DNA from: Gammaproteobacteria bacterium | Lineage (GTDB): Bacteria > Pseudomonadota > Gammaproteobacteria > Arenicellales > Spongiicolonaceae | DNA: 46,589 nt | Direction: 5' to 3' | Assembly (NCBI GenBank): GCA_028817275.1 | Contig: JAPPPZ010000063.1 | Span: forward strand, 1 to 46,589 | Made by a program: the position numbers and the translations under genes | In this document: in pieces, positions 5,087-38,065 of the stretch | Numbering within the stretch: position 1 is the first letter of the stretch | Layout of the letters: the number at the start of each line of letters is the position of its first letter | The notes under the pieces: generated by a model | What the model was told of the DNA's origin: nothing | The model's input: the letters and a program-made list of their open reading frames with translations, nothing else | Databases searched by the model: none

Positions 5087-5928
5087 CAGCGGCCCTGTCC
5101 CGGGCGGCGCAAGCCCCCGCCGTGCCGCCCGCCTTGATGGGGGTGGTCAATGTCACCCCGGACTCGTTTTTTGACGGCGGCCGCTATTTTGACCCGGCGC
5201 GCGCCATCGCCCACGGCGTTGCCCTGGCCGGGGCCGGCGCCGACATTGTGGACATCGGCGGCGAGTCCACCCGCCCCGGCGCCGCGCCGGTGGCGGCTGC
5301 CGAGGAGTTGCGCCGGGTGTTGCCGGTGGTGGAGGGGCTGGCGGCAAAGGTGAAGGCGCCGCTGTCCATCGACACTTCCAAGCCGGAGGTGATGGCCGCG
5401 GCGGTGGCGGCCGGGGCGGTGATGATTAACGACGTGCGGGCCTTGCAGTCGCCCGGCGCGCTGGCGGCGGCGGCGGGGTGCGGAGTGCCGGTGGTGCTAA
5501 TGCACATGCAGGGCGAGCCGGCGACCATGCAGCATGCGCCGCGCTACGGCGATGTGGTGGCCGAGGTCACCGCCTTCCTCAAAGCCCGCCGCGACGCCGC
5601 CATCACCGCCGGCGTGGATCCCGGCAATATTTACGTCGACCCCGGCTTCGGTTTCGGCAAAACCCCGGCGCACAACCTCGCCCTTCTGGCCAACATCAAA
5701 ACCATCGCCACGGTCGCCCCGGTGGTCGCCGGTCTCAGCAACAAATCCATCATCCGCCACATCCTCGGCGCCGTGGACGCCGCCGCCCTCACCGCGGCCA
5801 GCGCCCAATTAGCCGCCGCCGCCGCCGCCAATGGCGCGGCCATCATCCGGGTGCACGACGTCACCGCCACCCGCCGCGCCCTCGCCGTGCAGCGCGCCAT
5901 TTCCGGCGTCCACACCATCGCCGCCTGA
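5083..5928 (+). CDS. folP: Dihydropteroate synthase FolP
   Basis: FolP joins p-aminobenzoate to 6-hydroxymethyl-dihydropterin diphosphate to make 7,8-dihydropteroate in folate synthesis. The 281-residue protein has the TIM-barrel pterin signatures in order: [43 protein letters not shown] and a terminal IRVHDV. The GTG start at 5083 overlaps the ftsH stop codon (GTGA), which suggests translational coupling. A leader of about 17 residues precedes the first conserved strand. Folate supply is directly relevant to the C1 pathways encoded later in the window. The ftsH-folP-glmM order is the standard gammaproteobacterial one. Confidence 0.96.
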
Positions 5929-25463: not shown

Positions 25464-25494
25464 CGCCATCGCCGCCGGATGGCGCGGGTTTAAT
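25464..25494 (+). terminator. Hairpin at the aacS/fdxA convergence
   Basis: CGCCATC (25464-25470) and GATGGCG (25478-25484) form a perfect 7-bp stem with a 7-base loop, followed by CGGGTTTAAT. It stands just after the aacS stop and overlaps the last codons of convergent fdxA. The short T-run makes it a weak intrinsic terminator. Confidence 0.45.
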
Positions 25495-25834
25495 CTTCGC
25501 CGAGGGCGCCCGCTCCTTCGGGCATGAATTTTTTTAATTTTTCCGGCGTGTCTTTGTGCCGGTCGGCATCGGCGGGGACTTCACCCTTGGCGGTGATGTT
25601 GGGCCATTCCTGGGCGTAGTGGAGGTTGAAGGCGATCCATTTTTTGGCGCCGGGCTCGGTGTCGGGGACGATGGCCTCCACCGGGCATTCGGGTTCGCAC
25701 ACGCCGCAGTCAATGCACTCGTCGGGGTGGATGACCAGCATGTCCTCGCCTTCGTAGAAGCAGTCCACCGGGCACACTTCAATGCAGTCCTGGTATTTGC
25801 ACTTGATGCATTTTTCGTTGACGATGTAAGTCAT
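25490..25834 (-). CDS. fdxA: Seven-iron ferredoxin FdxA ([3Fe-4S][4Fe-4S])
   Basis: The 114-residue protein carries two clusters' worth of ligands: [18 protein letters not shown] near the N-terminus and [16 protein letters not shown] near residue 40. The first set has the spacing seen in Azotobacter FdI-type seven-iron ferredoxins. The C-terminal segment ([20 protein letters not shown]) is characteristic of alphaproteobacterial-type FdxA. It is the last gene of the sulfite-reduction operon and its start overlaps the DUF934 stop (ATGA), so it is a likely electron donor to sulfite reductase. It could also serve the corrinoid activator, which is speculation. Confidence 0.94.
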
Positions 25835-26379
25835 GTTTTTGCCGGCGTGGTGATGGCGGTGGCGCGCAGTGTAGCACGGTTGGCCTGGGCGCGCGCTTCA
25901 AGAATATTGCGCGCCGTGGTTTGCGCATAACCGGACTGGTAGGCGAGGGACAGCGCCCGCGCTTCGCGCAGCCATGTTTGCACGTCGTCACCGTCGGCGA
26001 TTTCCACGCTGTCCGCGCCGCAGCGCCGGAGGAAGTCAAACTGGTCGGGCAGCAGTTTGCCGATGGCGCGAATCTCGCCGCGATAACCCCGCCGGCGCAG
26101 CGAGCGGATGACCGAGAAGCCGCGGCCATCGGTGAACGCCGGGAAGATGACGCTGACCAGGGCCGCGGTGCTGATGGCGGCGGCGTGGCCGGCGGCTAAG
26201 GCCAGGTCTTCACCGGGGTCGATGTGCACGCCGACTTCACCCGCGCGCGCGGCGAGTTGTTCGCGCTCGGCGAGAAAACGCCGCAGGGTGACGGTGACTT
26301 TGCCGGCCGGCAGATCTTCACCGTCGTCCACCGCGCGCCACGAATCTTCGTGCGCAACAGAGACGCCCCTAAGCAGCAT
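25831..26379 (-). CDS. DUF934 protein of the sulfite reductase operon
   Basis: The 182-residue protein is the DUF934 family member that normally follows cysI. Its conserved core reads [21 protein letters not shown], then [27 protein letters not shown]. The biochemical role is not established; association with CysI and siroheme genes suggests assembly or regulation of sulfite reduction. I placed the start at the ATG at 26379 (MLLRGVSV), which overlaps the cysI end by 11 bases. The frame is open far upstream, but only as antisense to nothing and as an alternate frame of cysI. In alphaproteobacteria cysH often follows DUF934, whereas here fdxA follows. Confidence 0.85.
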
Positions 26380-28033
26380 ACAGCGCCTCCTTGAACGGCT
26401 GTGTGCCGACGCGGCGGTAGGTGTCGATGAAAGTTTCGCCGGCGCGGCGGATTTTAAGGTAGGTGCCGACGACCAGGTCCACCGCGTCGCCCACCTCCTC
26501 GGCGGCGAAGCCGGGGCCGACGATGTCGCCGATGGCGGCGTTTTCATCGGCGCTGCCGCCGAGGGTGATCTGGTAGAACTCGCGGCCTTTCTTTTCCAGT
26601 CCGAGGATGCCGATGTTGCCGACATGGTGGTGGCCGCAGGCGTTGATGCAGCCGGAGATGTTGATGCTGAGTCCGCCGATGTCGCGCTGGCGTTTGGCGC
26701 CGCCGAGTTGCAGGCTGAGTTGCCGGGCGACCGGAATGGAGCGCGCGGTGGCCAGGGTGCAGTAGTCCAGCCCCGGGCAGCAGATGATGTCGCCGGCGAG
26801 TCCGGCGTTGGCGGCGGCGAGTCCGGAATCGCGCAGGCCGCGCCACAATTCATGCACCTCGGCGGCGCGCACCCAGGGCAGCACCAGGTTTTGCTCATGG
26901 CTGACCCGCACTTCGCCGTGGCTGAACCGTTCGGCGAGTCCGGCGACGCTGCGCATCTGTTCGGCGGTGGCGTCGCCGGGAATGCCGCCGGCCGGTTTTA
27001 AGCTGACGGTGACAATTGCATGGCCGGGGATTTTGTGCGCGGCCAGGCTGGCGCGGCACCACAGGTCAAAGTCACCGTCAGTGCCGCGCGCGGCGCGCAA
27101 TTTTTTCGCGCCCTCACCATCGGCCTCGGCCCCGCCGATGGGCGGGGCGAAGTAGCGGGCGATGCGCTGGATTTCGGCGGCGTCGGGCAGCGCCTTGCGC
27201 GCCTGGCCGGCGGAATTTTCATATTCGCGCTCCACTTGCGCGGCGAATTGCGCGGCGCCGATTTCGTGCACTAAAATTTTCACCCGCGCCTTGTATTTGT
27301 TGTCGCGGCGGCCGTGCAAATTGTACACCCGCATGATGGCCTCGAGGTAGGCGAGAATTTCATCCCGCGCCAGCCAGCGGCGGATGGTTTTGCCGATCAT
27401 GGGCGTGCGCCCCTGGCCGCCGCCGACCACCACTTCAAAGCCCGGCGCGCCGGCGGCGTTGCGGTGCATGCGCAGGCCGATGTCGTGTACTTTAATTGCA
27501 GCGCGGTCATGGGGCGCGCCGGTGACGGCGATCTTAAATTTGCGCGGCAGGAAGGTGAACTCCGGGTGGAAGGTGGACCACTGGCGGATTAATTCGCAGA
27601 TGGGCCGCGGGTCTTCAATCTCATCGGCGGCGGCGCCGGCAAACGGGTCGGCGGTGACGTTGCGGATGCAGTTGCCGCTGGTCTGGATGGCGTGCATTTC
27701 CACCTCGCTGAGCTCGCCGAGGATGTCCGGAATGTCGCGCAGTTGCGGCCAGTTGAATTGAATGTTCTGGCGGGTGGTGAAGTGGCCGTAGTTTTTGTCG
27801 TAAACGGCGGCGATGTGCGCGAGTTTGCGCAACTGCCGCGACGACAACGTGCCGTACGGCACCGCAACGCGCAGCATGTAGGCGTGCAGTTGCAGGTACA
27901 CGCCGTTCATCAGCCGCAGCGGTTTGAATTCTTCCTCGCTCAGTTCGCCGGACAGCCGCCGCGCCACCTGGCCGCGAAATTGCGCCACCCGCTCGCGCAC
28001 CAACCGCGCGTCAAATTCGTCGTAACGGTACAC
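26369..28033 (-). CDS. cysI: Siroheme-dependent sulfite reductase (hemoprotein) CysI
   Basis: The 554-residue protein reduces sulfite to sulfide using siroheme coupled to a [4Fe-4S] cluster. Family hallmarks include FKPLRLMNGVYLQLHAYMLR, YGHFTTRQNIQFNW, IQTSGNCIRN, and the cluster ligands CCPGLDYCTLA and GCINACGHHHVGNIG in the C-terminal half. The start is a GTG at 28033 giving VYRYDEFDARLV, which is where homologs begin. The open frame continues 90 codons upstream through the DUF2849 gene, but in a different frame from it. No cysJ flavoprotein is nearby, so the two ferredoxin genes at the operon ends are the likely electron source. Confidence 0.95.
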   Translation of the reverse strand: MYRYDEFDARLVRERVAQFRGQVARRLSGELSEEEFKPLRLMNGVYLQLHAYMLRVAVPYGTLSSRQLRKLAHIAAVYDKNYGHFTTRQNIQFNWPQLRDIPDILGELSEVEMHAIQTSGNCIRNVTADPFAGAAADEIEDPRPICELIRQWSTFHPEFTFLPRKFKIAVTGAPHDRAAIKVHDIGLRMHRNAAGAPGFEVVVGGGQGRTPMIGKTIRRWLARDEILAYLEAIMRVYNLHGRRDNKYKARVKILVHEIGAAQFAAQVEREYENSAGQARKALPDAAEIQRIARYFAPPIGGAEADGEGAKKLRAARGTDGDFDLWCRASLAAHKIPGHAIVTVSLKPAGGIPGDATAEQMRSVAGLAERFSHGEVRVSHEQNLVLPWVRAAEVHELWRGLRDSGLAAANAGLAGDIICCPGLDYCTLATARSIPVARQLSLQLGGAKRQRDIGGLSINISGCINACGHHHVGNIGILGLEKKGREFYQITLGGSADENAAIGDIVGPGFAAEEVGDAVDLVVGTYLKIRRAGETFIDTYRRVGTQPFKEALYAA

Positions 28034-28037
28034 TTTT

Positions 28038-28316
28038 TCAGCCTTTCGCCTGCGCCACGCTCGGCCCGCGGTGGCGCAGTTGTTCGCGCAGGCGCAACGG
28101 TGACGGCCCGCCCCGGCAAAGTTCCACTTCCACCAAATACGGTCCCACCACGCGGTTGTCGCGCACTGCGGGCTGCGATGCGGCGAGCAATTTTTTTGCT
28201 GCGTCACGGTCGGCGGCGACCGCGGCATCGCCGATGTCGCCGCTCCAGCCGCCGGCGGTGCAATACACCACGGTGCCGGCGGCCAAATCGTTGGCGCTGA
28301 CAATCCAGCCGCTCAT
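28038..28316 (-). CDS. DUF2849 protein
   Basis: The 92-residue protein resembles DUF2849 members found between cysG and cysI in alphaproteobacterial sulfite-reduction operons. It starts MSGWIVSANDLAAGTVVYCT and contains the conserved VVGPYLVEVEL. Its start overlaps the cysG stop (ATGA) and its stop lies four bases before the cysI GTG. There is no recognised catalytic motif. It is small, probably soluble, and may interact with CysI. The function is unknown. Confidence 0.82.
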   Translation of the reverse strand: MSGWIVSANDLAAGTVVYCTAGGWSGDIGDAAVAADRDAAKKLLAASQPAVRDNRVVGPYLVEVELCRGGPSPLRLREQLRHRGPSVAQAKG

Positions 28317-29371
28317 GCCCGCAACTCTTTTGGTGACCGCAAAGGCGGCGGCGGCGGAGTGTGCAGCGGCGGCGGCGGTTTGGGTGCGACGGTGATGAGC
28401 GCCGGGCTGCGGATGCCGGGGACGACGTCCACAGTGATGCCGCCGGCGCGGAGGGCGTTGATCGCGGTTGCGGAAATGACGGTGCCGGGTGCGGAAATGC
28501 AGGCCACGTTGCGGCCGGCTTTAACGTGGCTGATGAGTTGACGGTGTACATCGCCGCCGCCGGCGTCCACGCGTTCGGCGTCGCGGCGCGCGTATTCCAG
28601 AATGGCGCCGCCGACGCTGCAGTCGTGCACAATGACATCGGCCTCCTGCAACTTGCGCACCGCTTTCAGGGTGAGCAGTTCGGCATCGGCCGGGGCGCTG
28701 AGCACACTGACCATGCCGTCCGCCTTGACCCTCGCGCGCGCCAAAAGTTTTTGTGCCGCGCGCCGCGCTTCGGGGAATCTTCCCTGCGCGATGAGCGTGG
28801 CGGTGCGCCCGGCGCTGGCGTGGGCGAAAAAATTTTCCCAGAATGCCCGCACGCGCGACGGCGGAACGGTTTCTGCAACCTCGGCGCGCAAACTTTGCGC
28901 GAATTTTGCCAGCGCGCCGGTGGCCGGCGGCAGCATGGTCTCAATTTTGCTTTTGATGCGCCGCGCCAGCACCGGCGCCGCGCCTTCGGTGCCCACCGCC
29001 ACCACCACCGGGTCGCGGTCCACCAGCGCCGGCGTGTAAAAAGTGCACAGCGCCGGCCGGTCCACGGTGTTGACCGGAATGTTGCGCGCCTGCGCGGCGG
29101 CGGAAACTTTTTTGTCCATGCGCGCATCGCCGGCGGCGGCGAACACCAGAGCGGCGCCGTCGGCGTCAGTGTCGCGGAAGTTGCGGCGGGCGAGGGTGAT
29201 GGCGCCGCGCCCGGCCAGCCGGCGCAACTCGGCGGACGGCGCCGGCGAGAAGACGTTGATGGCGGCGCCGGTTTTGGCCAGCAGGCGGACTTTTTGCGCT
29301 GCCTGCTCGCCGCCGCCGGCGACCGCCACGCGCCGCCCGCGCAGGCGAATGAAAACCGGGAAAAACTTCAC
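28313..29371 (-). CDS. cysG: CysG-type siroheme synthase with a shortened, degenerate methyltransferase half
   Basis: Full CysG (about 460 residues) both methylates uroporphyrinogen III and oxidises/chelates precorrin-2 to siroheme. This copy has 352 residues. The N-terminal dehydrogenase/ferrochelatase half is intact: AVAGGGEQAAQKVRLL, VNTVDRPALC (Asp104 retained) and GAAPVLARRIK. The C-terminal SUMT half is altered. The SAM loop GAGPGDPELLT reads LSAPADAELLT (224-234), the KGGDPFIFGRGGEE region is replaced by CISAPGTVISATAINAL, and the protein ends soon after VVPGIRSPALI with a Pro-rich tail. The fold core (LLTLKAVRKLQEADVIVHD) is still recognisable. The methylation step probably relies on another SUMT (CobA), or this half has a new role. 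Confidence 0.85.
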   Translation of the reverse strand: MKFFPVFIRLRGRRVAVAGGGEQAAQKVRLLAKTGAAINVFSPAPSAELRRLAGRGAITLARRNFRDTDADGAALVFAAAGDARMDKKVSAAAQARNIPVNTVDRPALCTFYTPALVDRDPVVVAVGTEGAAPVLARRIKSKIETMLPPATGALAKFAQSLRAEVAETVPPSRVRAFWENFFAHASAGRTATLIAQGRFPEARRAAQKLLARARVKADGMVSVLSAPADAELLTLKAVRKLQEADVIVHDCSVGGAILEYARRDAERVDAGGGDVHRQLISHVKAGRNVACISAPGTVISATAINALRAGGITVDVVPGIRSPALITVAPKPPPPLHTPPPPPLRSPKELRA

Positions 29372-29378
29372 CGCGGCT

Positions 29379-29693
29379 TCACCGGGAGTCGGCCAGGCGC
29401 AGGCCGAGGCCGTCCAGCGCGCGGTTCCAGATGACCTGGCAGCTCAGGCGCGAGTTTTCCGTGGCGCTGTCCAGGTCCTCCAGCATGTCGCGCTCGTCGT
29501 CACGCGCCGGGTGCAGTTTTTCCGCCCACCGGCTGTCCACGATGACATGGCAGGTGGCGCAGGCGCAGGCGCCGCCGCAAACCGCTTCGATCTCAAGGCC
29601 GTGGTCGCGGATGATTTCCATCAGCCGCCAGCCTTCGGCCGCGGCCAGGGTGTGTTCTTTGCCCTGGTGGTCGGTGACTTTGATGGTGCCCAT
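29379..29693 (-). CDS. [2Fe-2S] adrenodoxin-type ferredoxin
   Basis: The 104-residue protein has the plant/adrenodoxin-like [2Fe-2S] pattern: CGGACACATCHV (C-x5-C-x2-C) and a distal cysteine in SRLSCQVIW. It begins MGTIKVTDHQGKEHTL, so the ATG at 29693 is preferred although the frame is open to 29945. It carries one-electron equivalents, presumably for sulfite reductase or an oxygenase. It is the first gene of the minus-strand operon through fdxA, seven bases before cysG. Its promoter region contains operator-like palindromes, one of them 86 bases upstream of its start, shared with the XRE-cupin gene. Confidence 0.9.
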   Translation of the reverse strand: MGTIKVTDHQGKEHTLAAAEGWRLMEIIRDHGLEIEAVCGGACACATCHVIVDSRWAEKLHPARDDERDMLEDLDSATENSRLSCQVIWNRALDGLGLRLADSR

Positions 29694-29779: not shown

Positions 29780-29795
29780 GTTCTTTATATAGAAC
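29780..29795. promoter_or_regulatory. Operator-like palindrome, copy 1 (GTTCT-N6-AGAAC)
   Basis: GTTCTTTATATAGAAC has perfect 5-bp arms around a 6-bp AT spacer. On the opposite strand, copy 2 (29896-29911) matches it at 15 of 16 positions. It sits 86 bases upstream of the ferredoxin start. An XRE-type dimer such as the divergent regulator is the likely ligand. Confidence 0.65.
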
Positions 29796-29815
29796 AATGC
29801 TATCATAAAAATCAT

Positions 29816-29877
29816 CCAAATGGAGAAAAAATAAATCATTATTATTCAATGATTTATGAGTTTTCTCTAAAATTTGG
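29816..29877. repeat. 62-bp hyphenated inverted repeat in the divergent promoter region
   Basis: The core arms ATAAATCATT (29831-29840) and AATGATTTAT (29848-29857) are perfect complements around a 7-base centre. The symmetry continues outward as GAGAAAA (29823-29829) with TTTTCTC (29861-29867), and CCAAAT (29816-29821) with ATTTGG (29872-29877). The centre is near 29844, almost midway between the two operator-like palindromes. It is very AT-rich against a GC-rich genome. It could form a cruciform or bind a multimeric regulator; TAAAAT at 29868-29873 could serve as a -10. Confidence 0.7.
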
Positions 29878-29895
29878 ACTTTATAAAGACCTTTT

Positions 29896-29911
29896 GTTCT
29901 AAATAAAGAAC
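29896..29911. promoter_or_regulatory. Operator-like palindrome, copy 2 (GTTCT-N6-AGAAC)
   Basis: GTTCTAAATAAAGAAC has the same arms as copy 1. Its reverse complement differs from copy 1 at one base only, so the two sites face each other. It ends 27 bases before the ATG of the XRE-cupin gene, where it could block transcription of that gene (autoregulation). Confidence 0.65.
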
Positions 29912-29938: not shown

Positions 29939-30550
29939 ATGTCAAGGCCCGCGAAAAAAAATAAAAGCCGCGCCGCCGCGGTTGCCGACTCGCCGCAGAT
30001 GGGGCTGACCATTCAGCGGTTGCGCAAGGCGTACAAACTTTCCCTGGGCGAGTTGTCGGAGCAGTCGGGGGTGGCGAAGTCGGTCATCTCGCAGATTGAA
30101 AAAAATGAAACCAACCCGACGCTGAGCACCATCTGGCGGCTGAGCCAGGCGCTGGATGCGAGCATGGACGAAGTGCTGCAGTCCGGCGCGCAGGAAAAAT
30201 TTCTGGAGCACGTCGGCCCGCCCGGCACGCCGCTGCTGACCAGCGAGGACGGCCTCTGTAGACTGCGCATCATCGGCTGGCTGAAGACCGTGGACTGGGT
30301 GCAGTGGTATGATTTTGTCGCCGAGCCGGGCGGCGTGCTGGAGTCGGAGCCGCACCAGAAAGGCTCGGTGGAAAACCTCACCGTGTTAGGCGGGACGCTG
30401 GAGGTGACGGTGGACGACCGTGTCCACCGCGTCGCCGCCGGTGAAACTTTGCGCTACCGCGGTGACTTTCGCCACGCCATCCGCAACCCGGGCGACACCA
30501 CCGCCCACGCCACGATGGTGAACATTCTGAAAACCACGGTGATGGACTGA
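29939..30550 (+). CDS. XRE-family regulator with C-terminal cupin sensor
   Basis: The 203-residue protein has an N-terminal helix-turn-helix of the XRE type (residues 21-77, [20 protein letters not shown] followed by [21 protein letters not shown]) and a C-terminal cupin barrel (about 125-200, with [18 protein letters not shown] and [14 protein letters not shown]). Such regulators bind small ligands, often amino acids or amines, in the cupin. It lies directly upstream of glyA and soxB, so a role in controlling sarcosine/C1 genes is likely. The two GTTCT-N6-AGAAC sites in its promoter region are probable targets. The ATG at 29939 lacks a clear Shine-Dalgarno motif. A basic 18-residue leader (KKNKSR) precedes the HTH. 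Confidence 0.9.
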
Positions 30551-30584: not shown

Positions 30585-31841
30585 ATGTACCACAGAAGCG
30601 ACCGCATTAAAAATTTTGACGCGCCCTTGTGGGATGCACTGGAAAAAGAGCGTGTGCGGCAGGAGCGGCACATTGAGTTAATTGCGTCGGAAAACTACGC
30701 CAGCCCGCGCGTGCTGGAGGCGCAGGGCGGCCAGTTGACCAACAAATACGCCGAAGGTTACCCGGGCAAGCGCTACTACGGCGGCTGCGAGTTTGTTGAC
30801 ATTGCGGAGTCGCTGGCCATCGAGCGCGCCAAACAATTATTCGGCGCCGACTTCGCCAATGTGCAGCCGCATTCCGGCTCCTCGGCCAACGCCGCCGTCT
30901 ACATGGCCATGCTGGCGCCCGGCGACACCATTTTAGGCATGAGTTTGGCCCACGGCGGCCACCTGACCCACGGCGCCGGGGTGAATTTTTCCGGCAAGGT
31001 GTTCAACGCCGTGCAGTACGGCGTGCGCGACAGCGACGGTGAAGTGGACTACGACGCGGTCGCCGCGCTGGCCCGCGAGCACCAGCCGAAGATGGTGGTG
31101 GCCGGTTTTTCCGCCTACTCGCGGGTGCTGGACTGGAAAAAATTCCGCGCCATTGCCGATGAAGCCGGCGCCTGTTTGTTTGTGGACATGGCCCATGTGG
31201 CCGGCTTGGTGGCCGCCGGCCACTACCCCAGCCCGGTGCCGGTCGCCGACGTGGTCGCCACCACCACCCACAAAACCCTGCGCGGCCCGCGCGGCGGACT
31301 CATTTTGGCGCGCGCCAATGCGGCGGTGGAAAAGAAACTCAACGCGCTGGTCTTCCCCGGCATGCAGGGCGGGCCGCTGATGCATGTCATCGCCGCCAAG
31401 GCGGTGGCGTTCAAGGAGGCCATGGCGCCGGAGTTCAAGGACTACCAGGCGCAGGTGGTGGCCAACGCGCGCGCCATGGTGGCCGCGTTTCAGGCGCGCG
31501 GCTACAAAATCGTTTCCGGCGGCACCGACAACCATCTGTTCCTGCTGGATTTAATTGACAAAAACATCACCGGCAAAGACGCCGACGCCGCTTTCGGCCG
31601 CGCCAACATCACCGTCAACAAAAACGCGGTGCCCAACGACCCGCGCTCGCCGTTTGTCACCAGCGGCGTGCGCATTGGCACCCCGGCGTCCACCACCCGC
31701 GGCTTCCGCGAGCGCGAGATGACCGCGGTCACCCACTGGATGTGCGATATTCTGGACCGCATGGGCGACGAGTCGGTGGTGGACCAGACGCGCGCCAAGG
31801 TGAAGGAGTTGTGCGCGCGGTTTCCGGTGTATGGCGACTGA
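30585..31841 (+). CDS. glyA: Serine hydroxymethyltransferase GlyA
   Basis: GlyA interconverts serine plus THF with glycine plus 5,10-methylene-THF. The 418-residue PLP enzyme has [20 protein letters not shown], the PLP lysine in [13 protein letters not shown] (near residue 229), [15 protein letters not shown] and [20 protein letters not shown] stands just upstream of the ATG. In sarcosine-oxidase operons GlyA uses the glycine and methylene-THF that the oxidase makes, forming serine. It follows the XRE-cupin gene by 34 bases and leads into soxB. Confidence 0.97.
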
Positions 31842-31889: not shown

Positions 31890-33140
31890 GTGCAGAAATA
31901 TTCCATCTTCGCGCTGGCGCGCAACGCGCTGAGTCGCCACCGCCACTGGCGGCCGGCGTGGCGCAGCCCGCAGCCGAAGCGCGAATACGACGTGGTCATC
32001 GTCGGCGGCGGCGGCCACGGCCTCGCCACCGCCTACTATCTCGCCAGCGTCCACGGCCTCACCAACGTCGCGGTGCTGGAGAAGGGCTGGCTCGGCGGCG
32101 GCAACACCGGCCGCAACACCACCATCGTCCGCTCCAACTACCTGTGGGACGAGGCCGCGATGCTGTATGAAAAATCGCTGCAACTGTGGGAGGGCCTCAG
32201 CAAAGAACTGAACTACAACGTGATGTTCAGCCAGCGCGGCGTGATGAACCTCGGCCACACGCTGCAGGAAATGCGCGACATTGAACGCCGCGTCAACGCC
32301 AACCGCTTAAATGGAATCGACGCCGTGGTGCTGCAGCCCGACGAGATTAAGCGGCGCGTCCCCATCATGAACACCGCGCCTGATGCGCGCTACCCGGTGC
32401 TCGGCGCATCGTTCCAGCCGCGCGGCGGAGTGGCCCGCCACGACGCTGTCGCCTGGGGCTATGCCCGCGCCGCCGACGCGCGCGGCGTGGACATCATCCA
32501 GCAGTGCGAAGTCACCAGCATCCGCCGCGACAACGGCGCCGTTACCGGCGTCGACACCACCCGCGGCTTCATCAAGGCGGCCAAGGTCGGCGTGGTCGCC
32601 GCCGGCCACAGCAGCGTGCTCGCCGCCATGGCCGGCCTGCGCCTGCCGATTGAAAGCCACCCATTGCAGGCGCTGGTGTCGGAGCCGCTGAAGCCGGTGC
32701 TGGACACCGTGGTCATGTCCAACGCGGTGCACGGCTACATCAGCCAGAGCGACAAGGGCGAGTTGGTGATTGGCGCCGGCATCGATTCCTACAACGGCTA
32801 CGGCCAGCGCGGTGGCCTGGACGTGGTGGAGGGCGCGGTCGCCGCCATCGTGGAACTGTTCCCGGTGTTCAGCCGCGTGCGCCAGTTGCGCCAGTGGGGC
32901 GGCATCGTGGACACTTGCCCCGACGCCTGCCCGATCATCGGCACCACCCCGGTGCGCGGCCTGTTCTTCAACTGCGGCTGGGGCACCGGCGGCTTCAAAG
33001 CCACCCCCGGCTCCGGCTGGGTCTTCGCCCACACCATCACCCACGGCGCGCCGCACAAATTGAATGCGGCTTTCTCCCTGGACCGCTTCGTCAGCGGCGC
33101 GCTGATCGACGAGCATGGGGCGGCCGGGGTGGCGCATTGA
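31890..33140 (+). CDS. soxB: Sarcosine oxidase beta subunit SoxB
   Basis: SoxB is the FAD-binding subunit where sarcosine is oxidised in the heterotetrameric enzyme. The 416-residue protein begins with a GTG-encoded start and [16 protein letters not shown], the usual lead of the family. It then has the FAD dinucleotide fold [19 protein letters not shown] and [29 protein letters not shown] contains the histidine (near residue 183) that binds FMN covalently at the alpha-beta interface in known enzymes. [13 protein letters not shown] near the C-terminus is also typical. soxB is normally followed at once by soxD, but here a DNA methyltransferase gene and an unknown gene intervene (33194-34766). 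Confidence 0.96.
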
Positions 33141-33193: not shown

Positions 33194-34330
33194 ATGTATA
33201 AAGAAATCCAACTCACCCGGGCGAAATCTCTCAGTAAAAAAGAGATTGGTTTGATTGATTCCTTCAATCACCAGTTTCGCAAGCGGGATTTTCACGTCGT
33301 GCCGGATGGGAATTCGGTGCAGATTCTCTTGCGGGAAGTTGACATGCCCCGCTTGAAAAAATCCGTTGAGGAATTGTCCGCCGGGAACGGCTTGCTGACC
33401 GATATTCTCGCCGCTGTGGAGGGCGTTGGGGGTTACGGCATTCGCGGGAAAAAGCGCGATTATGTAAACTACAACAAAGAGCGCAAGGTAAAAAACCGCG
33501 CTGCAAAAGAATTGCAGCGGGGTAAATTTTATTACGCCAAGGATCACGGTTATTCAGCCCGGAATAGCGATGTTCCTGCACGCTATGTGAATAAAATTAT
33601 CTGCGGTGACAGCGCGACGGTGCTGAAAAAACTGCCGGATAACTGTGTGGATTTGATATTCACCTCGCCGCCCTACAATTTCGGCCTGGATTACGCCGCC
33701 GGCGCGGATGATTTTGACTGGCCGGGTTATTTTGACAAACTGTTCGCGGTTTTTGACCAGTGCATCCGCGTTCTCAAGCACGGCGGGCGCATCGTGGTCA
33801 ACATCCAGCCGCTTTACTCGGACTACATCCCCAGCCACCACATCATCAGCAACCACTTCATCAACAAAAAGTTGATCTGGAAGGGCGAAATCCTGTGGGA
33901 GAAGAACAACTACAACTGCAAGTACACCGCCTGGGGCAGTTGGAAAAGCCCGGGCAACCCGTATCTTAAATACACTTGGGAATTCATTGAGATTTTCTGC
34001 AAAGGCGACATCAAGAAACCCGGCCGGCGGGACGACGCCGATATTTCCGCCGAGGAATTCAAGCGGTGGGTGGTGGGCAAATGGAGCATCGCGCCGGAGC
34101 GCAGGATGAAACAGTTCAACCACCCGGCAATGTTCCCCGAATCCCTCGCCCGGCGCGTGCTTAAACTGTTCAGTTTTCGCGGCGATTTCGTCGTAGACCC
34201 GTTCAACGGCGCCGGCACCACCACTTTAGCGGCCGGGCAAAGCGGGAGGAGGTTTCTGGGGATAGACATATCCGAAGAATACTGCCAAACGGCAGAAGAT
34301 CGCCTGTCCCAAAGCGAAATCCGTTTTTGA
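33194..34330 (+). CDS. Site-specific DNA methyltransferase (beta-type order, N4-cytosine or N6-adenine)
   Basis: The 378-residue protein has the catalytic motif IV as FTSPPYNFGLDYA (near residue 157) ahead of the SAM motif I as VDPFNGAGTTTLA (near 334). This is the permuted order of beta-class amino-methyltransferases. SPPY is most common in N4-cytosine enzymes but also occurs in N6-adenine ones, so the target base is open. Residues 1-130 form an extra N-terminal region of unknown fold, rich in Lys and Arg (KKRDYVNYNKERKVKNRAAK), which may help recognise DNA. The gene splits the sox operon and has its own candidate promoter. Its composition is less GC-rich than soxB. No recognisable restriction enzyme is adjacent. 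Confidence 0.9.
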   Translation: MYKEIQLTRAKSLSKKEIGLIDSFNHQFRKRDFHVVPDGNSVQILLREVDMPRLKKSVEELSAGNGLLTDILAAVEGVGGYGIRGKKRDYVNYNKERKVKNRAAKELQRGKFYYAKDHGYSARNSDVPARYVNKIICGDSATVLKKLPDNCVDLIFTSPPYNFGLDYAAGADDFDWPGYFDKLFAVFDQCIRVLKHGGRIVVNIQPLYSDYIPSHHIISNHFINKKLIWKGEILWEKNNYNCKYTAWGSWKSPGNPYLKYTWEFIEIFCKGDIKKPGRRDDADISAEEFKRWVVGKWSIAPERRMKQFNHPAMFPESLARRVLKLFSFRGDFVVDPFNGAGTTTLAAGQSGRRFLGIDISEEYCQTAEDRLSQSEIRF

Positions 34331-34373: not shown

Positions 34374-34766
34374 ATGCTGGACCCAAAAAATCCCCAAAGT
34401 ACGCACGGCTACGAGCCCGAAGATTGGCAAAATGCCAAAGTACAGGCGAAAGTCCACTTGGCCAGCGTGGCAAAGCGCCAAGGTTGGGAAACTTATGGTG
34501 GGCTGGTGAAAAAAATTGACGCCATCCGATTTGCACCCAATGACCCTGCGCTGGCCGCTCTGTTAGGTCAAATAAGCAGTGAAGAACATAATGCCGGCCG
34601 AGGCATGCTTACCGCAATTGTGGTGCATAAAGACGGTGACCGGAGACCCGGCAAGGGATTTTATAAACTTGCGCGGTATCTGGGCCTGGATACATCCGAC
34701 AAGGATGCACTTTGGGTTTCCGAAACCGGGAAAGTCTGGAACTATTGGAAAAACCAGAAGGTCTGA
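34374..34766 (+). CDS. Hypothetical protein beside the DNA methyltransferase (130 aa)
   Basis: The product is small, soluble and probably alpha/beta. It contains AIRFAPNDPALAALLGQISS and then EEHNAGRGMLTAIVVHKDGD, with GKGFYKLARYLGL and a Trp-rich end (VWNYWKNQKV). I recall uncharacterised bacterial proteins with a very similar RGML..VVVHK.GD..PG.GF..LA..LG pattern, so it looks like a conserved family, but I know no function. GAGGAA lies just upstream of the ATG and a TATACT (34358-34363) could be a -10, suggesting separate transcription. Possibilities are a partner of the methyltransferase or an unrelated cargo gene. Restriction-enzyme motifs (PD-ExK, HNH) are not visible. Confidence 0.65.
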   Translation: MLDPKNPQSTHGYEPEDWQNAKVQAKVHLASVAKRQGWETYGGLVKKIDAIRFAPNDPALAALLGQISSEEHNAGRGMLTAIVVHKDGDRRPGKGFYKLARYLGLDTSDKDALWVSETGKVWNYWKNQKV

Positions 34767-34775
34767 CAGGCCGAG

Positions 34776-35072
34776 ATGCTCCTAATCCCCTGCCCCTGGT
34801 GCGGCCCCCGTGACCAGTCCGAGTTCTCCTACGGCGGACAGGCGCACATTGTGCGGCCGGCCGAGCCGGCGGCGCTGGGCGATGGCGAGTGGGCCGATTA
34901 TCTTTTTATGCGCGACAACCCCATGGGCGCGCACCGGGAGCAGTGGTGCCACAGCGGCGGCTGCCGGCGGTGGTTTAATGTCAAGCGCGACACCGTCACC
35001 TACCGCATCCTTGCGGTTTACAAAATCGGCGAGAGCGGCGGTGAGGGTGAAGGCGGAGGCGGTGCGCCATGA
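34776..35072 (+). CDS. soxD: Sarcosine oxidase delta subunit SoxD
   Basis: The 98-residue zinc-binding subunit starts MLLIPCPWCGPRDQSEFSYG, with a CxxC pair, and has a second ligand group in QWCHSGGCRRWF. DYLFMRDNPMGAHREQWCH is the standard family core. The last 13 residues (ESGGEGEGGGGAP) are a Gly/Glu tail encoded by a G-rich element. SoxD is needed for assembly of the oxidase tetramer. Its stop overlaps the soxA start (ATGA). It is separated from soxB by the methyltransferase island. Confidence 0.93.
   Translation: MLLIPCPWCGPRDQSEFSYGGQAHIVRPAEPAALGDGEWADYLFMRDNPMGAHREQWCHSGGCRRWFNVKRDTVTYRILAVYKIGESGGEGEGGGGAP
35029..35067 (+). repeat. G-rich Gly/Glu-coding element (soxD tail)
   Basis: The stretch contains GGCGGTGAGGGTGAAGGCGG and encodes GGEGEGGGG at the C-terminus of SoxD. 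Its GGCGGTGAGGGTGAAG core also occurs, on the minus strand, in the NRDE gene at 494-510. Confidence 0.4.
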
Positions 35073-38065
35073 GTTATCCCAGCCAGGGCCGCCGCCTGCC
35101 CGAAGGCGGACTCATAGACCGCGGCTCGCCGCTGCTTTTTCATTTCAACGGCAGGACCTGCAGCGGTTACGCCGGCGATACCCTGGCCTCGGCGCTGCTG
35201 GCCAACGGTGTGACGCTGGTCGGGCGCAGTTTTAAGTACCACCGCCCGCGCGGCATTGTCGGCAGCGGCGCCGAGGAGCCCAACGCCATCGTCCAGGTCG
35301 GTGAGGGCGCGCTGACCGTGCCCAACATGCGCGCCACGCAGACCGAGTTGCACAAAGACCTGGTCGCCGCCAGCGTCAACGCCTGGCCCGGCGTTTCTTT
35401 TGACCTGGCTGCGGCGGCCGGCGGGCTGGCGAAAATTCTGCCGCTGATGCCGGCCGGGTTTTACTACAAAACTTTCATGTGGCCGCAAAGTTTCTGGCGG
35501 CATTATGAGCGCATCATACGCAAAGCGGCCGGCCTCGGCCGCGCGCCCGGGGCGCCGGACCCGCAGCGGCGCGACAAGATTAACATTCACTGCGACGTGC
35601 TGGTGGCCGGCGGCGGGCCGGCCGGGCTGGCCGCCGCGCTGGCCGCCGGGCGCTGCGGGGCGCGGGTGATCCTTGCCGATGAGCAATTTATTTTCGGCGG
35701 CAGTTTGCTGCCCGGCGACGCCGCCATTGACCGCCGCCCGGCGCGCGACTGGGTTGGCCGGGCGGTGGACGAGTTGCGCGCGATGAAGAGGGTGAGGCTT
35801 TTGCCGCGCACCACGGTGTGCGGTTATTTTGACCACAACTTTCTCTCGCTGCTGGAGCGCATGCCCGGGCAACCGCTGGCGGAGCGCCTGTGGAGGGTGA
35901 GGGCGCGGCGCGTGGTGCTGGCCGCCGGCGCCATTGAGCGGCCGCTGGTGTTTCCCAACAACGACCGCCCCGGCGTCATGCTGGCATCGGCGGTTTCGCA
36001 GTATGTCCGCCGCTACGCTGTCCGGCCCGGCACCTGCGGCGCGCTGTTCACCAATAACGACTCCGGCTACACCGCCGTTCTGGATTTGCTCGACAACGGC
36101 ATCAGCGTGGCCGGCGTTGTGGACCCCAGAACCACCGTCCACGGCCCTCTGCCCGGCAGGGTGCGCGAGCGCGGCGTCAAAATCCACACCGGCTGCGTGG
36201 TTACCAACGTCGCCGGCCGCCGGCGCGTACGCGGTGTGCAAGTCATGACACTCAGCCAGGCCGGCAACACCGTCACCGGCAAAGCCGCGACTCTGCAGTG
36301 CGACCTGCTGGCGGTTTCCGGCGGCTGGAGTCCGGCGGTGCATCTGCATGCACAGTCCGGCGCGCGACCGGTGTTTGACGAGTCCAGAGCATGTTTCGTC
36401 CCCGGCGAGTCGGTGCAGGCCGAGCAGTCAGCCGGCGCCGCCAACGGTGTTTTTGATCTCGCCGCCTGCCTTGCCGAGGGCCACGCCGCCGGCGCCGCCG
36501 CCGCCGCTGCTGCAGGCTTCAGCGCCGCCGGTGGCGGCGAGGCGCCATCTGCCGAGCCGGCGGAACAGGCGCCGCTGATGCCGCTGTGGCTGGCGCCGGC
36601 GCCGCCCGGCCACGGCAAGCGGTTCGTGGACTACCAGAACGACACTGACGCCGCCGACCTGCAACTGGCGGTGCGCGAGAATTACCGCGCCATGGAGCAT
36701 GTCAAACGCTACACCGCCCTCGGCTTCGGCACCGACCAGGGCAAACTCGGCAACATCAACGGCATGGCCATCGTCGCCGCCGAGACCGGCGCCGGCATTG
36801 CCGCCACCGGCACCACCACTTTCCGGCCGCCGTATACGCCGCTGGCTTTCGGCGCCCTGGCCGGGCGTGAGCGTGGACAGTTTTTCGACCCGTTGCGCAA
36901 GACCGCGATCCACCAGTGGCACGTGGACCACGGCGCCGAGTTTGAAAATGTCGGGCAGTGGAAGCGGCCGTGGTTCTACCCGCGCCCCGGCGAGCGCATG
37001 GTGGATGCGGTGAACCGCGAGTGCCTGGCCGCGCGCGGCGCCGTTGGCATTCTGGACGCCGGCACCCTCGGCAAGATCGACGTCCGCGGCCCTGACGCCG
37101 CCGAGTTTCTGAACCGCATCTACACCAACGCCTGGGACAAACTGAAGATCGGCGCCTGCCGCTACGGCCTGATGCTGGGCGAGGACGGCATGGTGATGGA
37201 CGACGGCGTCACCGCCCGCATCGCCGAGGACCGTTTCCACATGACCACCACCACCGGCGGCGCGGCGCATGTGCTGGCCTGGATGGAGCGCTGGTTGCAG
37301 ACCGAGTGGCCGCACCTCCGGGTTTTCCTGACCAGCGTCACCGAACGGTGGGCGACGGTGTCGCTGGCCGGGCCGCGCAGCCGGGCGGTGATGGAAACGT
37401 TGTGCGGCGGCATTGACTTCGCCGCCGCCGCGTTTCCGCTGATGGCTTTCCGCGACGGCACTGTTGCCGGCATTGCGGCGCGCGTGTTCCGCATTAGTTT
37501 CAGCGGCGAGTTGTGCTACGAGGTGAACGTGGCCGCCGGCCATGGCCGCGCGCTGTGGGATGCCTGCATGGAGGCCGGAGCAGTGCACGGCATCACGCCC
37601 TACGGCACCGAGACAATGCACGTGCTGCGCGCTGAAAAAGGCTACATCATTGTCGGCCAGGACACCGACGGCTCGGTGACGCCGATGGATTTGGGGATGG
37701 AATGGATACTCTCCAAAAAGAAAGACTTCCTCGGCAAACGCTCCCTGTCGCGCCCCGACTGCGTGCGCAAAGACCGCAAGCAACTGGTCGGACTGCGCAC
37801 CATGGACCCGCAGGAGGTGCTGCCGGAGGGCGCGCAGTTGACCGACTCGCGCATTGTGTCCAGGCCGGCGCCGATGGTCGGCCATGTCACCTCCAGTTAC
37901 TACAGCGCATGCCTCAAACACTCCATCGCCCTGGCGCTGGTCAAGGGCGGCCGCGCGCGCATGGGCGGAACGGTGTACGCGCCGCTGGTGGACGGCCGCA
38001 CCGTCGCCGCCGAGGTGTGCAGTCCGGTGTTTTACGATCCCGAAGGGGCAAAGCAGAATGGCTGA
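35069..38065 (+). CDS. soxA: Sarcosine oxidase alpha subunit SoxA
   Basis: SoxA (998 residues) binds NAD+ and tetrahydrofolate and couples sarcosine oxidation to methylene-THF formation. It has an N-terminal ferredoxin-like domain (SGYAGDTLASALLANGV, SFKYHRPRG), then a nucleotide fold DVLVAGGGPAGLAAALAAG near residues 175-195. A second flavoprotein region includes VVLAAGAIERPLVFPNNDRPGVM. The C-terminal GcvT-like folate domain runs from about residue 640 (GAVGILDAGTLGKIDVRGPD) to the end, with GTETMHVLRAEKGYIIVGQDTDG. A low-complexity Ala/Gly stretch near 470-495 separates the halves. It overlaps soxD by four bases and soxG by eight. Confidence 0.96.
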   Translation: MSYPSQGRRLPEGGLIDRGSPLLFHFNGRTCSGYAGDTLASALLANGVTLVGRSFKYHRPRGIVGSGAEEPNAIVQVGEGALTVPNMRATQTELHKDLVAASVNAWPGVSFDLAAAAGGLAKILPLMPAGFYYKTFMWPQSFWRHYERIIRKAAGLGRAPGAPDPQRRDKINIHCDVLVAGGGPAGLAAALAAGRCGARVILADEQFIFGGSLLPGDAAIDRRPARDWVGRAVDELRAMKRVRLLPRTTVCGYFDHNFLSLLERMPGQPLAERLWRVRARRVVLAAGAIERPLVFPNNDRPGVMLASAVSQYVRRYAVRPGTCGALFTNNDSGYTAVLDLLDNGISVAGVVDPRTTVHGPLPGRVRERGVKIHTGCVVTNVAGRRRVRGVQVMTLSQAGNTVTGKAATLQCDLLAVSGGWSPAVHLHAQSGARPVFDESRACFVPGESVQAEQSAGAANGVFDLAACLAEGHAAGAAAAAAAGFSAAGGGEAPSAEPAEQAPLMPLWLAPAPPGHGKRFVDYQNDTDAADLQLAVRENYRAMEHVKRYTALGFGTDQGKLGNINGMAIVAAETGAGIAATGTTTFRPPYTPLAFGALAGRERGQFFDPLRKTAIHQWHVDHGAEFENVGQWKRPWFYPRPGERMVDAVNRECLAARGAVGILDAGTLGKIDVRGPDAAEFLNRIYTNAWDKLKIGACRYGLMLGEDGMVMDDGVTARIAEDRFHMTTTTGGAAHVLAWMERWLQTEWPHLRVFLTSVTERWATVSLAGPRSRAVMETLCGGIDFAAAAFPLMAFRDGTVAGIAARVFRISFSGELCYEVNVAAGHGRALWDACMEAGAVHGITPYGTETMHVLRAEKGYIIVGQDTDGSVTPMDLGMEWILSKKKDFLGKRSLSRPDCVRKDRKQLVGLRTMDPQEVLPEGAQLTDSRIVSRPAPMVGHVTSSYYSACLKHSIALALVKGGRARMGGTVYAPLVDGRTVAAEVCSPVFYDPEGAKQNG

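Follow-up and report, generated by a model that had tools for sequence, protein, structure and literature searches.

A candidate XRE-cupin operator pair between divergent sulfite-reductase and sarcosine-oxidase operons in a gammaproteobacterium

Introduction

What is controlled by an AT-rich stretch of bacterial DNA that is framed by two mirrored palindromes and set between two divergent operons, and which protein reads it? The question is raised by a locus in a gammaproteobacterial genome of 2,018,755 bp, with an estimated completeness of 92.9%. The window, which is the whole 46,589-nucleotide stretch of DNA that was analyzed, has a GC content of 65%, as against 22.7% for the 132-bp region at positions 29780 to 29911, its most AT-rich stretch of that length. 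A first-pass annotation had described this region as distinct from its GC-rich surroundings, which it clearly is, and had proposed that it might hold a looped regulator complex that couples sulfur reduction to the use of C1 units.

Results

Both palindromes lie where the annotation had placed them. The left candidate operator, O_L (29780-29795; GTTCTTTATATAGAAC), is located 86 bp upstream of a leftward operon of 2Fe-2S ferredoxin, cysG, and sulfite-reductase genes, and the right one, O_R (29896-29911; GTTCTAAATAAAGAAC), is located 27 bp upstream of the start codon of an XRE-cupin regulator gene. Their reported identity at 15 of 16 positions when one of them is inverted is correct (13 of 16 in direct orientation) and is largely automatic, since both are near-perfect palindromes. 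A genome-wide search for the exact motif GTTCT-N6-AGAAC returned two matches in the 2,018,755 bp, O_L and O_R, and no further similar site appeared in the whole genome when up to two mismatches were allowed; the many random sites that would have counted against an operator role are therefore not present. Base composition predicts 0.65 sites per genome, and 6.5e-5 sites in a 117-position stretch as AT-rich as this one. A degenerate third palindrome (29876-29891; GGACTTTATAAAGACC), with three mismatches to the operator and overlooked in the first-pass annotation, is positioned 20 bp, or about two helical turns, from O_R and is possibly a weak tandem site. It is eroded in a sister species of the same genus, known from a metagenome-assembled genome (L033; 13 of 16 positions identical). 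In Hyphomicrobiales and Caulobacterales, the main site is repeatedly accompanied by a weaker tandem site 20-22 bp away.

The gene content bears out the annotated division between a ferredoxin/sulfite-reductase operon and an XRE-cupin/glyA/sox operon. On the reverse strand, the leftward operon opens with the 2Fe-2S ferredoxin gene (29379-29693; Fer2), followed by a CysG-like siroheme synthase (28313-29371), a DUF2849 protein (28038-28316; PF11011), and a nitrite/sulfite reductase hemoprotein (26369-28237; NIR_SIR) whose start codon is uncertain, and the same-strand run ends with an FdxA-type ferredoxin (25490-25834; NF045490). Every NCBIfam match of the hemoprotein falls under its equivalog cut-off, so that, judged by sequence, it may possibly act in nitrite reduction. 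On the forward strand, the regulator gene (29939-30550) is followed after 34 bp by glyA, encoding serine hydroxymethyltransferase (30585-31841), and by genes for the sarcosine oxidase beta (soxB, 31890-33140; TIGR01373), delta (soxD, 34776-35072; TIGR01374), and alpha subunits (soxA, 35069-38065; TIGR01372). Between soxB and soxD, the sarcosine oxidase operon also contains a forward-strand DNA methylase gene (33194-34330; N6_N4_Mtase) and a small forward-strand gene without a Pfam match (34374-34766); a DNA methylase gene follows soxB in the sister species as well. In two other gammaproteobacterial loci, the space between glyA and soxB is occupied by a serine dehydratase gene identified by its Pfam match (L039:6102-7055) and by a gene that resembles it at its start (L042:5940-7316).

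No convincing sigma-70 promoter was found under either operator, nor a convincing rightward site. The best leftward match, TTGACA-16-TACATT (29945-29918), would set a putative leftward start near O_R; we rejected this candidate, whose -35 element lies inside the start of the regulator gene.

The 203-residue regulator combines an N-terminal HTH domain (Pfam HTH_3, residues 25-78) with a single C-terminal cupin domain (Cupin_2, residues 128-194), the layout of SutR-like XRE-cupin regulators, which are about 180-200 aa long, and a monomeric AlphaFold model displays a helical N-domain followed by a beta barrel (mean pLDDT 82). Within the HTH domain, a stretch of 16 residues is nearly invariant among relatives, in keeping with the constancy of the operator described below.

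Forty loci encoding relatives of the regulator were compared, 39 of which were counted as orthologous, with proteins 55-99% identical. An operator with an AT core lies within 400 bp upstream of the regulator in 31 of the 39 orthologous loci and at no other place in the 317 kb that these loci comprise; the loci are related, so the 31 cases are not independent events. The sister species, with the same gene order, keeps the pattern: 31 of 32 operator bases are identical, as against 84% identity between the operators and 85% in the left flank. The single operator change turns O_L into a perfect palindrome (GTTCTTTATAAAGAAC), and O_R is identical. The Caulobacterales form of the operator, GTTCTATATATAGAAC, is almost invariant; a weaker GTTC...GAAC site often precedes it by 21-22 bp, most of these loci have a single strong site, and a -35 element sought upstream of it displayed only weak column conservation. 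Paired sites, one by each divergent start, recur in six loci (L034-L038 and L040) and are found in Hyphomicrobiales, where L034, L036, and L037 carry tandem sites 21 bp apart beside the regulator. Three Roseiarcus-type orthologues (L041, L043, L044) have neither an operator site nor sulfite genes, and two gammaproteobacterial loci (L039, L042) keep the ferredoxin/glyA/sox context with only a degenerate site. Site and regulator thus occur together in Caulobacterales, Hyphomicrobiales, Rhodomicrobium, and the present gammaproteobacterium, and the genes to the right of the regulator vary. This joint occurrence across orders supports the suggestion that the palindromes serve as XRE-cupin operators.

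Nearly all alphaproteobacterial loci have siroheme synthase (cysG)/sulfite reductase genes divergent from the regulator gene. In L034, L036, and L037, the divergent operon opens with a TrxR-type ferredoxin-NADP reductase gene, followed by a 2Fe-2S ferredoxin gene. The motif was scanned in the whole genomes of 37 relatives, and the genes at second AT-core sites were inspected. Among 26 Caulobacterales genomes, 16 had such a site 23-113 bp upstream of a gene for a plant-type ferredoxin-NADP reductase. This reductase is the likely target, since the gene on the other side of the site varies. The TrxR-type reductase that opens the operon in the three former loci suggests that the same function has been captured by a different gene. 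Upstream of cysDN, the genome of L036, an alphaproteobacterium, has a further copy of the operator and, 20 bp from it, a tandem site. As a general target, cysD was rejected: the site precedes it in one of six genomes checked, and the five other cysD genes are without it. In two related alphaproteobacterial genomes, an AT-core operator (L093:3798-3813 and L131:2070-2085) stands some 50 bp ahead of a RimK-like ATP-grasp gene, a possible additional regulon member. Apart from this last case, the motif associations all relate to the reduction of sulfite or sulfate or to the electrons needed for it, and they point to a small predicted regulon for ferredoxin-dependent sulfite reduction; we found no publication on it in the open-access literature, and it appears to be undescribed.

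Only in gammaproteobacterial loci (L033, L039, L042) is the regulator followed by glyA and sox genes, which makes the C1 link a lineage-specific addition. The annotated reading of the region is partly supported: the sulfite-reductase and glyA/sox operons do adjoin, but the C1 side is confined to this class.

Between the operators, the annotated 62-bp hyphenated inverted repeat exists (29816-29877), and its center at 29846.5 is close to the operator midpoint at 29845.5. The core (29831-29857) has the form ATAAATCATT-N7-AATGATTTAT, a perfect 10-bp stem with a 7-nt loop, and the perfect blocks stand in mirror order as ATAAATCATT/AATGATTTAT, GAGAAAA/TTTTCTC, and CCAAAT/ATTTGG. A symmetry beyond that of a normal operator pair, as had been claimed, is not supported, the statistics being only marginal. 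When the same 100 bp between the operators was subjected to dinucleotide shuffling, 13% of the shuffles matched the best ungapped inverted repeat (p = 0.13; p = 0.33 in the sister species), and 0.7% equalled the gapped alignment of the two halves (p = 0.007; 0.3%, p = 0.003, in the sister species). The sister species keeps 9 of the 10 core pairs, with one coupled change from T-A to C-G at 29836/29852, and most of its other substitutions disrupt pairs in the window register of the repeat. We consider the repeat to be probably the mirror-image promoter and spacer sequence of two similar divergent promoters, with no special structure. A Fur box in the central dyad was rejected, its best match (13 of 19 positions) being equalled by 18% of shuffles.

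The gene content of the host suggests where the sulfite may originate. Neither ATP sulfurylase (PF01747) nor the PAPS-reductase/CysD family (PF01507) had a match in this genome, which is 92.9% complete; the latter family was found in all 14 control genomes. Sulfoacetaldehyde acetyltransferase (Xsc), which releases sulfite, is present with a match above the cut-off. The host thus seems to have lost sulfate assimilation and retained sulfite reduction, and because sulfate activation is undetected and Xsc is present, the substrate of the regulated reductase is likely sulfonate-derived sulfite, to the extent that the genome is complete. Away from the window region, the genome has a gene for a TrxR-type ferredoxin-NADP reductase (C33), with no operator; a plant-type one gave no match in a search that had no positive control and is uninformative. 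A sponge origin is likely, in view of a study of sponges from CO2 seeps in Papua New Guinea. Life on taurine by way of Xsc has been documented for a gammaproteobacterial symbiont of sponges, Candidatus Taurinisymbion ianthellae (PMC10356861).

Discussion

We are confident, short of certainty, that the region is a divergent-operon control region in which the palindromes would serve as operators of the adjacent XRE-cupin protein, most likely an autoregulating local repressor with one operator for each promoter; the motif itself is very probably the operator of this protein. In the proposed mechanism, each site would be recognized at its GTTCT/AGAAC ends by the two HTH domains of a regulator dimer. 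The leftward ferredoxin-cysG-sulfite reductase promoter would be controlled from one operator, and the rightward promoter of the regulator, glyA, and sox from the other. In one ligand state of the cupin domain, dimers would occupy both operators and block RNA polymerase, possibly aided at O_R by the weaker tandem site 20 bp away. A change in a sulfur signal, for which sulfite, sulfide, cysteine, or its precursor are candidate ligands, would release the dimers and turn both operons on. The pairing of the operons is biochemically sensible, since serine, formed by glyA with C1 units from sarcosine, would accept the sulfide produced by the leftward operon. Binding by the XRE-cupin protein, repression as opposed to activation, and the co-transcription of each operon are what we infer from the sequences; overall, this is an ordinary kind of switch.

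Several other readings of the region were weighed against this one. Were the regulator to recruit polymerase to one or both promoters under sulfur limitation, the palindromes would be activator sites, a role in line with the annotation of E. coli SutR as a dual regulator and with weak native promoter matches that would fit the need for an activator. However, O_R and many orthologous sites lie 20-120 bp from the regulator start codon, where occlusion is usual; activation is thus a serious yet doubtful alternative, and repression is the more likely mode. The looped complex envisaged in the first-pass annotation would consist of a regulator tetramer that bridges the operators, loops the AT-rich DNA between them, and represses both promoters jointly, and it is favored by an operator distance close to 11 helical turns (116 bp in the window, 117 bp in the sister species), by the AT-richness of the intervening DNA, and by an inner symmetry that survives the gapped test. 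This spacing is conserved within the genus only: elsewhere, the two sites of a pair are separated by 111 to about 140 bp with no constant helical phase, a single strong site is the rule in Caulobacterales, and each site is near its own gene start, where one operator per promoter would suffice without a loop. With spacing and phase varying among relatives and the inner symmetry weak, looping is possible but unsupported, and we consider it unlikely.

The palindromes might instead belong to another transcription factor, with the XRE-cupin gene merely adjacent. Yet site and regulator co-occur across orders while the genes to the right of the regulator change, which makes this very unlikely. Even harder to sustain, to the point of being barely plausible, is an RNA element, such as a hairpin leader or terminator, in place of a DNA element at the 62-bp repeat. 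The perfect stem with its 7-nt loop and the coupled change in the sister species would suit an RNA, but no Rfam match reached the gathering score, the single coupled change stands against several pair-breaking ones, and the repeat, placed between both presumed promoters, would be transcribed from neither side.

A possible picture, toward which we lean less than halfway, is that of an undescribed, widespread regulon whose XRE-cupin protein responds to a sulfur intermediate and coordinates ferredoxin-dependent sulfite reduction with the supply of electrons for it. Here, in what is likely a sponge symbiont, the regulon would have been reduced to one locus. Through its mirror-image and possibly looped control region, sulfite from host sulfonates (e.g., taurine) would be coupled to sarcosine-derived serine for the synthesis of cysteine. 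The large group of uncharacterized XRE-cupin regulators gains a concrete, testable candidate operator and regulon from the analysis, which would also link ferredoxin-dependent sulfite reduction to a single control protein in marine alphaproteobacteria. For a host with Xsc and with no detectable ATP sulfurylase or APS/PAPS reductase families, it suggests sulfite from sulfonates as the regulated sulfur source.

Comparison with known systems

Looping regions of the lac/gal type combine a tetrameric, bridging repressor with operators on the same helical face at a conserved spacing, an arrangement of sites that the relatives of the window operators do not share. Cysteine biosynthesis in gammaproteobacteria, including assimilatory sulfite reduction, is controlled by CysB/Cbl-type (LysR) regulators. 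Assimilatory sulfite reduction is the theme that these regulators have in common with the present locus, but their protein family and sites are unrelated to those of the XRE-cupin protein, and the electron donor here is apparently a ferredoxin system in place of NADPH-CysJ.

The nearest solved structures, in both sequence and fold, are a Vibrio cholerae HTH_3/cupin regulator (PDB 1Y9Q) and a cupin domain (PDB 6B8W), which are distant from the window protein at 23-24% identity. To our knowledge, neither has a ligand or DNA site assigned.

A closer link is offered by SutR (YdcN) of E. coli, an XRE-cupin regulator of sulfur utilization (Yamamoto et al. 2015, cited in PMC8464067). In a single BLASTP comparison, it is a full-length homologue of the window protein (29% identity and 52% similarity over 173 aa, E = 1e-27), with the same domain order, an alignment that spans both HTH and cupin, and a sulfur link common to both. 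The sutR-ydcO intergenic region of E. coli K-12 contains two 16-bp palindromes, GTGCGTTATAGCGTAC and GTCCGTTATAACGCAC, which share a GT...TTATA...AC frame with the window operators but differ in their half-site letters. These palindromes, with TTATA cores 32 bp apart (L097:5591-5606 and 5623-5638), are candidate SutR operators. The neighbors of sutR are ydcO and rlhA, with no sulfite-reductase or ferredoxin genes beside it, whereas the window regulator is flanked by the sulfite-reductase and glyA/sox operons. Because neighborhood and half-sites differ, we do not name the window protein SutR and regard it as a relative; judged by its sequence, it belongs to the SutR-like XRE-cupin regulators.
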